From contig JAAYUB010000108.1 of the NCBI GenBank assembly GCA_012517875.1, positions 1-33,207 on the forward strand: DNA of 33,207 nt, given 5' to 3'. The notes under the pieces are model-generated. The model worked only from the letters and a program-made list of their open reading frames with translations, was not told the DNA's origin and searched no databases. Below, one piece after another: positions 5,266-7,934 of the stretch. This DNA is from Acidobacteriota bacterium (GTDB lineage: Bacteria > Acidobacteriota > JAAYUB01). The stretch's first letter is position 1; the number at the start of each line of letters is the position of its first letter. Position numbers and translations under genes: made by a program.

Positions 5266-5946
5266 GTGACCAGCATCGATTTTTTCAAACGCATCCCCCT
5301 GTTTCACAATCTGACTGCGGCCGAGCTTCAGAATCTCCAGCCCATCTTTCAGGAGCGCGAGTACAAGAAAAACCAGGTCATTTTCATCGAGGAAGAGACC
5401 GGCCAGTACATGTACATCGTCAAGTACGGCGAGGTAAAGGTGCTCCAAACCACGCCGGACGGCCGAGAGAACATCCTCGCGATCCACGGGCCCGGCGACA
5501 CGTTCGGCGAGCTCTCTCTCCTGGACAATGAAACCACCCCGGCCACGGTGGTGGCGATGGAAGACTGCAAGATCATCTCGATCTCCAAGCAGCATTTCGA
5601 GGCCGTGCTGATGAAGAACGCCCAGGTGGTGGAATCGCTGCTGACCATCTTGTGTCGGAAACTGCGGGATTCCTGGAAGACCATCCAGATTCTGAAATTC
5701 AACGACGCCGAAACCCGTCTCAAGCATGTCCTGATGAGCCTAGCCCGCGTGGACGGTCAGTGGGAGGAAGATGAGGTGCTGATCTCGACGAAGATCACCC
5801 ACCAGGACCTGGCGGAGATTGCCGGCACTTCTCGTGAGACCATCAGCCGGATCATCTCCAAGCTGCAGGCTCAGAAGATGCTGAGAATCCGAGCCCACAA
5901 ATTCGTCCTGGTGGGCCACGACCGCTGGAAAAACGTGCAACCATGA
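5266..5946 (+). CDS. CRP/FNR-family transcriptional regulator
   Basis: A 226-residue DNA-binding regulator. The cyclic-nucleotide-binding-type beta barrel spans about residues 5-120 and is followed by a long dimer helix and a winged helix-turn-helix (about 170-205) with the recognition segment TSRETISRIISKL, typical of CRP/FNR proteins. In the pocket the motif reads FGELSLLDNETTPATV: the usual arginine that contacts the cyclic phosphate is replaced (Pro-Ala-Thr), so cAMP is unlikely to be the ligand. No N-terminal cysteine cluster of FNR type is seen. The GTG at 5266 is chosen because the family usually starts just before the first beta strand; a TTG at 5245 in frame is an alternative. The stop overlaps the next start (ATGA at 5943-5946). 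Confidence 0.85.
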   Translation: MTSIDFFKRIPLFHNLTAAELQNLQPIFQEREYKKNQVIFIEEETGQYMYIVKYGEVKVLQTTPDGRENILAIHGPGDTFGELSLLDNETTPATVVAMEDCKIISISKQHFEAVLMKNAQVVESLLTILCRKLRDSWKTIQILKFNDAETRLKHVLMSLARVDGQWEEDEVLISTKITHQDLAEIAGTSRETISRIISKLQAQKMLRIRAHKFVLVGHDRWKNVQP

Positions 5947-6158
5947 GCGGCGCGCCTCCCGACTACCCGGAACGGCTCCGGCGGCTACGACATGACCTGA
6001 ACACCCCCCTGACCACGATCCGGGGGCAGATCGATTTGTTACTGCTCCAGGAAAAGCAGCTGTCGCCGGGAGCCCGCCGGCGGATCGAACGGATCCTTAT
6101 CAGTTGCGAGGAGATCGTACGGCTGCTCAACGACAACTGCCACGAGCCGGAGGATTGA
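5943..6158 (+). CDS. Stand-alone histidine-kinase H-box (DHp/HisKA-like) protein
   Basis: A 71-residue protein that appears to consist only of a two-helix dimerisation and histidine phosphotransfer hairpin. Residues 16-23 read RHDLNTPL, matching the H-box of HisKA domains (H-E/D-L-x-T-P-L) with the phospho-acceptor candidate His17. Helix one covers about 8-36, a Ser-Pro-Gly turn sits at 41-43, and helix two covers about 44-64. No ATPase domain (N, G1, G2 boxes) follows, and the frame is closed by TGA at 6156-6158. It overlaps the CRP-type gene by four bases and lies one base before the response regulator gene, so the three are translated as a unit. It could relay phosphate, act as a phosphatase or docking partner, or be a remnant of a kinase. 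Confidence 0.75.
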   Translation: MSGAPPDYPERLRRLRHDLNTPLTTIRGQIDLLLLQEKQLSPGARRRIERILISCEEIVRLLNDNCHEPED

Positions 6159-6159
6159 C

Positions 6160-7257
6160 ATGCACGCGTCCATCCTGGTTGTCGAAGACGAGCCGAGCGT
6201 ACGTGAGATTCTGACCTGGCGGCTCATGGAGGAAGGGTACAACTGCCAACCGGCGCCCAACGCCCAAAATGCGCTGGATTTTTTTCAACACGGCCAGCGG
6301 TTCGACCTGATGATGAGCGACATCCGGATGCCGGGCATGAGTGGCATCGACCTGCTGAAGAAGGTCCGCGCCCTGGACCCCGACTTGGCGGTGATCATGG
6401 TGACCGCGGTGTCCGACATGAGCATCGCCATCGAAACGCTCAAGATGGGCGCCTCCGATTACATCACCAAGCCATTCAATCTCGACGAGGTGTGCATCGC
6501 CGTCGAGCGGGCCCTGGAGAAGCGCAGCCTGATCCTGAAGAACCGGGAGTATCAGCTGTTCCTGGAAGACAAGGTCGAGGAGCAGACCGTCCAAATCAAG
6601 AACCTGTACCTGGACGCGATCAAGTCGCTGGTCTCGGCGCTGGAAGCCAAGGACAAGTACACTGAGGGCCATTCCCGCCGGGTCACCCGGTACGCCGTGG
6701 AAATCGCTCGGATCATGGGCATTTCCCGCGAGCAGATTCAGAAGGTGTATCTCGCCGGCCTGCTGCACGACATCGGCAAGATCGGGGTCAAGGAAAGCGT
6801 CCTCAACAAGCCCACCTCGCTCGACGCCGAGGAATTCTCGCACATCTACTATCACCCGGCCATCAGCGCCAAGATCCTGTCGCCGATTCTGCGCGACACC
6901 GACATCCTGGGCTACGTCAAACACCACCATGAGTACTGGGACGGCAACGGCCGACCGGACGGGCTCAACGGCGAGGCGATCCCCATCGGCGCCCGCATCC
7001 TGTCGGTGGCCGACGCCTTCGACGCCATCACGTCCGACCGCCCGTACCGGACCGCCCGCCCGGTCTCCTATGCCGTCGAGGAGATCCAGAAGTGTTCCGG
7101 CACCCAGTTCGACCCGGTCATCGTGGCGGCCTTCCTGAAATTCGTTGAGACCTTCTTTCCGGGGGTCGAGTATCTGCGGCCGGTGGTGGAGCGGGTGTTT
7201 CCCGACCTGCAGGCGGCCACCCCCAACATGGACGACATCCTCCAGAAACAGCCATAA
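6160..7257 (+). CDS. Response regulator with HD-GYP c-di-GMP phosphodiesterase domain
   Basis: A 365-residue RpfG-type protein. The receiver domain (about 1-120) is intact: acidic pair Glu-Asp in VVEDEP, phospho-acceptor Asp54 in SDIRMPG, Thr in VTAVSD and Lys in TKPFN. A coiled linker (about 125-160) leads to the HD-GYP domain (about 165-345) with HSRRVTRYA, the HDIGK metal-binding core (His203-Asp204, Lys207), HHHEYWDGNG and ADAFDAI. The name-giving GYP triplet is GRP here. The family hydrolyses cyclic di-GMP to pGpG or GMP in the cytoplasm. The gene directly follows the H-box protein, its most obvious partner, and no complete kinase is encoded in this window. Confidence 0.93.
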   Translation: MHASILVVEDEPSVREILTWRLMEEGYNCQPAPNAQNALDFFQHGQRFDLMMSDIRMPGMSGIDLLKKVRALDPDLAVIMVTAVSDMSIAIETLKMGASDYITKPFNLDEVCIAVERALEKRSLILKNREYQLFLEDKVEEQTVQIKNLYLDAIKSLVSALEAKDKYTEGHSRRVTRYAVEIARIMGISREQIQKVYLAGLLHDIGKIGVKESVLNKPTSLDAEEFSHIYYHPAISAKILSPILRDTDILGYVKHHHEYWDGNGRPDGLNGEAIPIGARILSVADAFDAITSDRPYRTARPVSYAVEEIQKCSGTQFDPVIVAAFLKFVETFFPGVEYLRPVVERVFPDLQAATPNMDDILQKQP

Positions 7258-7319: not shown

Positions 7320-7934
7320 TCAAGGGTGTGACGGGAAGTAGCGGTGGCGGCACTCCGGGCAGAGGCCGTGGGTGAAATCCATGTTGGACCGGCCGGCCAG
7401 GAAGCTTTCGATCTCCTGCCACGTGTGATCGGGCAGGCGGATCTTCTTGCAGCCGGCGCAGATGGGAATGAGGCCCTCCAGTTTGCGGATGCGCTCCTCC
7501 ATCTGTTTCTGCAGCGAAATGTCCCGGATGCTGCCGATCACGGCCACCTGGGTGCCCAGGTGGTTGATCACCGGCCATGTCCGCATGGCGGCCCAGACCG
7601 TGAGGCTGTCGGACCGACGCAGCCGGAGCTGGAGCTCCGTGTCGGCTGAGCCCGCTGCCGCCGCCTGCCAGAACGCATCGAAGGCCGGCCGGTGCTCGGT
7701 GTCCACCAGCTCGGCGAGCAGTCCGGGGTTTTCGTAGAATGCCGACGGCTGATGTCCGGTCAGAGTGACGGCCGCCGGGCTGACATACTGGAAGCAACGG
7801 TCGAGAAGGTGGAAACGGATGATGAGGTCTTGGTCGCAGGAAAGGATCTCGCGGAAATTGCGGTTCTCGGAGCGCAGCTTCCGGTTTTCCTCCAGCAGCT
7901 TGTCGATTTCGAAGGAGAGGTAACGGTTATCCAC
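7320..7934 (-). CDS. PAS-domain protein with C-terminal CxxC...CxxC module
   Basis: A 204-residue putative sensor without a recognised output domain. A short coiled coil (about residues 5-30) precedes a PAS domain (about 30-148) that ends in the typical segment GSIRDISLQKQMEERI. The last 50 residues hold PICAGCKKIR ... HGLCPECRHRYFP, a four-cysteine module often seen at the end of sensor and regulator proteins in environmental bacteria; it probably binds a metal, although its role is not established. The GTG at 7934 is supported by a GGAGG seven bases upstream on the minus strand. The gene converges with the HD-GYP gene and lies 42 bases after the GNAT gene, with which it may be cotranscribed. 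Confidence 0.8.
   Translation of the reverse strand: MDNRYLSFEIDKLLEENRKLRSENRNFREILSCDQDLIIRFHLLDRCFQYVSPAAVTLTGHQPSAFYENPGLLAELVDTEHRPAFDAFWQAAAAGSADTELQLRLRRSDSLTVWAAMRTWPVINHLGTQVAVIGSIRDISLQKQMEERIRKLEGLIPICAGCKKIRLPDHTWQEIESFLAGRSNMDFTHGLCPECRHRYFPSHP

Follow-up and report, generated by a model that had tools for sequence, protein, structure and literature searches.

Two-component systems are defined by the pairing of a kinase with a regulator, and several described proteins share part of this machinery with the small HisKA protein (mini-HisKA) reported here. Spo0B and ChpT are DHp-derived proteins that have no kinase activity, serve one relay, and keep a degenerate CA-like domain. RpfC-RpfG and other kinase/REC-HD-GYP systems have a REC-HD-GYP output. 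In archaea, HisKA proteins without HATPase are known (classified in P2CS as "possible incomplete histidine kinase"), for which a phosphoacceptor or phosphatase role has been suggested (PMC5847659). Moreover, the DHp domain of EnvZ (domain A) or NtrB is alone sufficient to dephosphorylate its cognate regulator, with CA domains greatly raising this activity (PMC3510030); phosphatase activity of DHp-only EnvZ was not seen in mammalian cells (PMC8971529).

The window, i.e., the whole stretch of 33,207 nucleotides of acidobacterial DNA that was analysed, carries a 71-aa mini-HisKA gene between a CRP-type gene and a REC-HD-GYP gene. Like the archaeal proteins, mini-HisKA has the conserved His and lacks HATPase, but those proteins bear N-terminal PAS/GAF sensors, whereas mini-HisKA is a bare DHp without any sensor domain in Pfam, coupled to one response regulator, and thus falls outside a class defined by an N-terminal sensor plus HisKA (PMC5847659). 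Similarly, the lack of HATPase_c in the same protein sets it apart from histidine kinases. It resembles EnvZ domain A and the NtrB DHp in size and fold, but these are laboratory truncations whereas mini-HisKA occurs naturally. Spo0B and ChpT each have a dedicated family, none of which matches mini-HisKA in Pfam, and the partner in RpfC-RpfG is a full hybrid kinase, whereas the present locus encodes no kinase. No report of the CRP > mini-HisKA > REC-HD-GYP cassette was found in searches of open-licence PMC papers. What is new is the minimal bare-domain form and its fixed pairing with one regulator, HATPase-less HisKA as such being already known.

Gene layout and domain content of the cassette

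The mini-HisKA reading frame runs from ATG at 5943 to TGA at 6156-6158. Its start overlaps the end of the CRP-type gene (5946) by 4 bp (ATGA), and the REC-HD-GYP gene starts at 6160, one base past its stop, with a ribosome-binding sequence inside the mini-HisKA gene, suggesting joint translation of the three genes as a single unit. The original prediction of a complete 71-residue gene with His17 in RHDLNTPL, overlapped by a CRP-type gene and one base from a REC-HD-GYP gene, was exact to the base. A sigma-70 promoter scan found none and a terminator scan gave a count near chance. The features are as follows.

5266-5946, + strand: 226-aa transcription factor of the CRP/FNR type, start GTG 5266 (TTG 5245 gives the longest ORF); Pfam cNMP_binding 1.9e-29, HTH_Crp_2 4.6e-13
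5943-6158, + strand: stand-alone HisKA/DHp mini-protein, 71 aa; Pfam HisKA 1.3e-10; in 6/6 class genomes; dN/dS 0.09-0.18
5964-6050, + strand: helix 1 of the predicted DHp hairpin, residues 8-36 (AlphaFold2 model)
5991-5993, + strand: His17 codon, predicted phospho-acceptor/catalytic His; invariant across aligned orthologues
5994-5996, + strand: Asp18 codon (H+1, kinase acid); Asn in two family-f2 orthologues; role per PMC3510030, PMC2991266
6003-6005, + strand: Thr21 codon (H+4, phosphatase position); Thr/Ser/Asn among orthologues; role per PMC3510030
6066-6137, + strand: helix 2 of the predicted DHp hairpin, residues 42-65, with invariant Cys55 (AlphaFold2 model; invariant columns)
6149-6153, + strand: ribosome-binding sequence (GGAGG) for REC-HD-GYP, located within the mini-HisKA frame (read from the sequence)
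6160-7257, + strand: 365-aa response regulator of the REC-HD-GYP type, on which mini-HisKA likely acts; Pfam Response_reg 5.4e-30, HD_5 5.3e-39
6319-6321, + strand: Asp54 codon, receiver phosphorylation site (alignment)

Residues 13-64 of mini-HisKA match Pfam HisKA (PF00512) with 41.6 bits (cut-off 26.9), and HATPase, Hpt (PF01627), SPOB_a (Spo0B, PF14689), HPTransfase (ChpT, PF10090), and other families were absent at E<=1. The window's own genome has 36 PF00512 matches, of which only mini-HisKA lies in so short a frame, the next shortest being 253 and 262 aa. AlphaFold2 predicted a two-helix hairpin (pLDDT 84), for which the best PDB folds in Foldseek were the DHp domains of GacS/RetS, ERS1, and EnvZ; the divergent orthologue in G005, unrecognised by Pfam, was likewise predicted as a two-helix hairpin (pLDDT 93) with the DHp domains of GacS/RetS and ZraS as best folds. 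In both cases the Foldseek probability was high and E was >0.05, as is usual at such a small fold size, and a PDB sequence search with mini-HisKA gave no match at E<=0.01. The expected HisKA-like hairpin is supported by Pfam, the structure model, and the fold comparison, and Pfam shows no ATPase domain.

The closest PDB fold, a RetS-GacS DHp complex (7n0e), also suggests that mini-HisKA might act by binding rather than chemistry, either forming a mixed four-helix bundle with the DHp of another kinase in the style of RetS-GacS, or shielding the receiver and titrating the signal, and a lone DHp could compete effectively. However, the gene linked to it encodes a regulator, not a kinase, and an invariant His17 with a polar H+4 suggests chemistry, making such a role improbable.

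In the REC-HD-GYP regulator, the acidic pocket, Asp54, Thr, and Lys of the receiver are kept in the five complete orthologues, which also have the HD metal-site residues (HD, HHE, D). The GYP motif is altered in all of them, with its tyrosine replaced by Arg (GRP in G000-G002 and G005) or Gly (GGP in G003). The window's genome contains 12 GGDEF matches, which makes c-di-GMP signalling plausible in this organism. The EnvZ specificity positions T250, L254, and A255 correspond to T24, G28, and Q29 of mini-HisKA, all invariant and suggestive of regulator docking; invariant residues were not significantly enriched at the positions that contact the regulator (p=0.12). The CRP/FNR-type gene is the first cassette gene in the six genomes. 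All six orthologous products have lost the Arg-Ser from the cyclic-nucleotide phosphate cassette (FGELSLLDNETTPATVVA in the window), which makes cAMP an improbable ligand. Convergent to the cassette lies a gene for a PAS-domain protein with a Cys-rich tail (CAGCKKIR...CPEC; 7320-7934, - strand), which is kept in the two closest genomes.

Conservation of the cassette within the class

A scan of GTDB species genomes for close homologues recovered only two orthologues, with 94 and 90% identity, both from acidobacterial MAGs, and the in-depth search covered Acidobacteriota. Within the class, four orthologues were obtained by the first search, and those of G005 and G004 were added via synteny and profile search; several of the compared genomes are MAGs, and the G004 contig stops inside REC, so that REC-HD-GYP is complete in five orthologues. 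The gene order CRP > mini-HisKA > REC-HD-GYP was found in all six genomes analysed for the class, spanning three genera and two families, with mini-HisKA lengths of 71, 71, 71, 82, 68, and 67 aa (range 67-82). None of the orthologues has a HATPase_c CA domain in Pfam. The HisKA score was 28.9 bits in G003 (cut-off 26.9), and the two orthologues of family f2 fell under the cut-off, one without a match and one at 17.4 bits.

Identity between the two families is only ~33%, and H17, L23, T24, G28, Q29, L32, L33, E37, S41, R47, C55, I58, and L62 are invariant over the six genomes. The dN/dS ratio was 0.09-0.18 for the mini-HisKA gene versus 0.02-0.11 for neighbour genes; synonymous changes dominate, and the gene is under purifying selection. 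Cys55, invariant in the cassette proteins, is also present in several other CA-less HisKA relatives.

By comparison, when other orders of the phylum were examined, the 25 next-nearest REC-HD-GYP homologues (42-49% identity) had neither a mini-HisKA nor the CRP gene within ~1.5 kb on either side, and together with the presence of the cassette throughout the class, this indicates that the mini-protein tracks the REC-HD-GYP regulator of the cassette. No close homologue was found in IMG/VR or among plasmids.

The gene is very short and HisKA is normally part of a kinase, so that a decaying histidine-kinase remnant or a chance ORF had to be considered. Such an origin is scarcely credible given the constrained dN/dS, the constant gene order over two families, the absence of HATPase downstream, and the translational coupling. 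A frameshifted or truncated kinase was ruled out on the same dN/dS, all six proteins being short, without HATPase, and directly followed by REC-HD-GYP on the 3' side. The original prediction had named full-length kinase homologues with a frameshift here, or an unconserved His17 among short homologues, as outcomes that would count against it; neither occurred, and the expectation of a protein always short and always beside REC-HD-GYP held throughout the class.

H-box residues and the likely role of mini-HisKA

In HisKA proteins, the acid at H+1 is needed for the kinase activity only and Thr/Asn at H+4 for the phosphatase activity only (PMC3510030); accordingly, mutation of EnvZ D244 (H+1) abolishes autophosphorylation (PMC2991266). 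DHp domains typically have Thr or Asn at H+4, and true HPts carry Gly (87%), Ser (10%), or Thr or Asn (0.3% each) at this position (PMC6341664). At H+1/H+4, the three genomes of the window's genus have D/T, G003 has D/S, and the two f2 genomes have N/N, i.e., H+1 is acidic in the four genomes of family f1 and Asn in the two of f2, and H+4 is Thr in three genomes, Ser in one, and Asn in two. Arguments from these residues thus draw on only three independent lineages.

The invariant His17, the Asn at H+1 combined with Asn at H+4 in f2, and the precedent of phosphatase activity by DHp alone favour mini-HisKA as a dedicated DHp phosphatase, possibly a reversible phosphotransferase, for the adjacent receiver. 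In the f2 branch, loss of the H+1 acid with Asn at H+4 is a change that a phosphatase would tolerate. The window protein, however, retains Asp at H+1, which counts against this reading, and Ser at H+4 in G003 argues against uniform phosphatase chemistry. As the overall best explanation, with close to an even chance of being right, mini-HisKA would reset the adjacent REC-HD-GYP by dephosphorylation rather than activate it.

The Ser of G003, common in HPts, leaves room for an HPt-like phosphotransferase that passes phosphate from a hybrid-kinase receiver through His17 to Asp54 of the REC-HD-GYP regulator, in the manner of Spo0B and ChpT. Such a relay should not need the H+1 acid, His17 is invariant, the genome has large HisKA-HATPase proteins that are potential hybrid kinases, and related CA-less HisKA/regulator pairs in families f5 and f47 carry HPt-like Gly/Ala at H+4. 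However, two of the three lineages with the cassette have Thr or Asn, each rare in HPts, Hpt, SPOB_a, and HPTransfase are unmatched in Pfam, and the locus has no linked hybrid kinase, leaving the relay rather unlikely, though the likeliest of the rival readings.

Another possibility is a split kinase like CheA3/CheA4 with mini-HisKA as its substrate half, in which a CA domain encoded elsewhere would phosphorylate His17 in trans before donation to REC-HD-GYP. The EnvZ DHp domain can undergo phosphorylation in trans, and the Asp at H+1 is kept by the f1 genera. Split histidine kinases do exist (PMC3591291). Nevertheless, this possibility appears remote, as the acid required for kinase activity is replaced by Asn in both f2 genomes, where Asn at H+4 likewise counts against it. 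Furthermore, the HATPase matches without HisKA in the window's genome resemble RsbW-like, LytS-like, and LuxR-type proteins and a contig-edge fragment, none being convincing as a dedicated lone CA partner.

The gene product is a complete DHp (HisKA) protein of a single domain. Under the favoured phosphatase reading, it would dimerise to give the four-helix bundle usual for DHp domains. The face of helix 1 below His17 would dock on the receiver of the co-translated REC-HD-GYP, as suggested by the translational coupling and the invariant contact positions. Having no CA domain, mini-HisKA is incapable of self-phosphorylation, and its main job would most likely be to take the phosphate off Asp54 via H17 and the Thr/Asn at H+4, returning the receiver to the unphosphorylated state after its phosphorylation by another kinase or a small-molecule donor. 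The amount of the mini-HisKA/REC-HD-GYP pair may be controlled by the CRP/FNR-type factor encoded with it.

Other CA-less HisKA proteins in Acidobacteriota

A wider profile search of 396 Acidobacteriota genomes revealed further HisKA proteins without HATPase. In family f5 (L130, L134-L138, L141), proteins of 186-245 aa (with a weak PAS match in one) precede an NtrC-type regulator, and no HATPase match lies within ~5 kb of three of these pairs. Family f47 (L132, L133, L142) has a PAS-HisKA protein followed by a REC protein, and in L133 and L142 the next ORF after REC bears a HATPase; in G286 (L127) a HATPase-less HisKA precedes NtrC. These pairs resemble the cassette in that a HATPase-less HisKA lies upstream of, and overlaps or abuts, a response regulator gene. 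They differ in being mostly longer (some with PAS), in having Gly/Ala at H+4 (f5 and f47, HPt-like) and NtrC-type or other REC partners, and in that no CRP gene was detected alongside. Other forms include, in G376 (L149), a HATPase-less fusion with the layout GAF-GAF-PAS-HisKA-REC, 712 aa long with one open end, and solitary HisKA proteins of ~100 aa (RHEINNPL or RHEVNNPL) without an adjoining response regulator in family f21 (L143, L145, L146, L148).

In the window's own genome, L115:1406-3542 (C17) carries the gene of a 248-aa protein with only a weak HisKA match in Pfam, overlap-coupled to an NtrC-type regulator; a degenerate CA domain may make up the C-terminal half of the 248-aa protein. 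Across L124-L148, nearly all CA-less HisKA proteins have Arg/Lys before the His, and CA-bearing kinases have Ser/Ala/Thr or a hydrophobic residue; this query-biased pattern was not used as evidence because the profile that collected these proteins itself contained that feature.

The original prediction of a phospho-relay or phosphatase partner for an HD-GYP regulator remains the best reading, but calling it a new kind went too far in view of the archaeal HATPase-less HisKA proteins (PMC5847659), the EnvZ and NtrB DHp phosphatases (PMC3510030), and the similar CA-less HisKA/regulator pairs elsewhere in this phylum. As a tentative and somewhat doubtful generalisation, Acidobacteriota may recurrently use a layout in which the gene-linked partner of a regulator is a kinase-less DHp, with bare proteins bearing Thr/Asn at H+4 acting as receiver phosphatases and PAS-DHp proteins bearing Gly/Ala as HPt-like relays; ATP-dependent phosphorylation would come from elsewhere and the local partner would only reset or route it. 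The H+4 contrast among otherwise similar CA-less pairs makes the distinction between phosphatase and HPt directly testable. Short HisKA-only proteins are readily overlooked or misannotated as kinases, and a natural isolated DHp maintained next to one regulator would be what the EnvZ domain-A truncation is in the laboratory, offering a clean test of whether DHp alone suffices for phosphatase control in cells.
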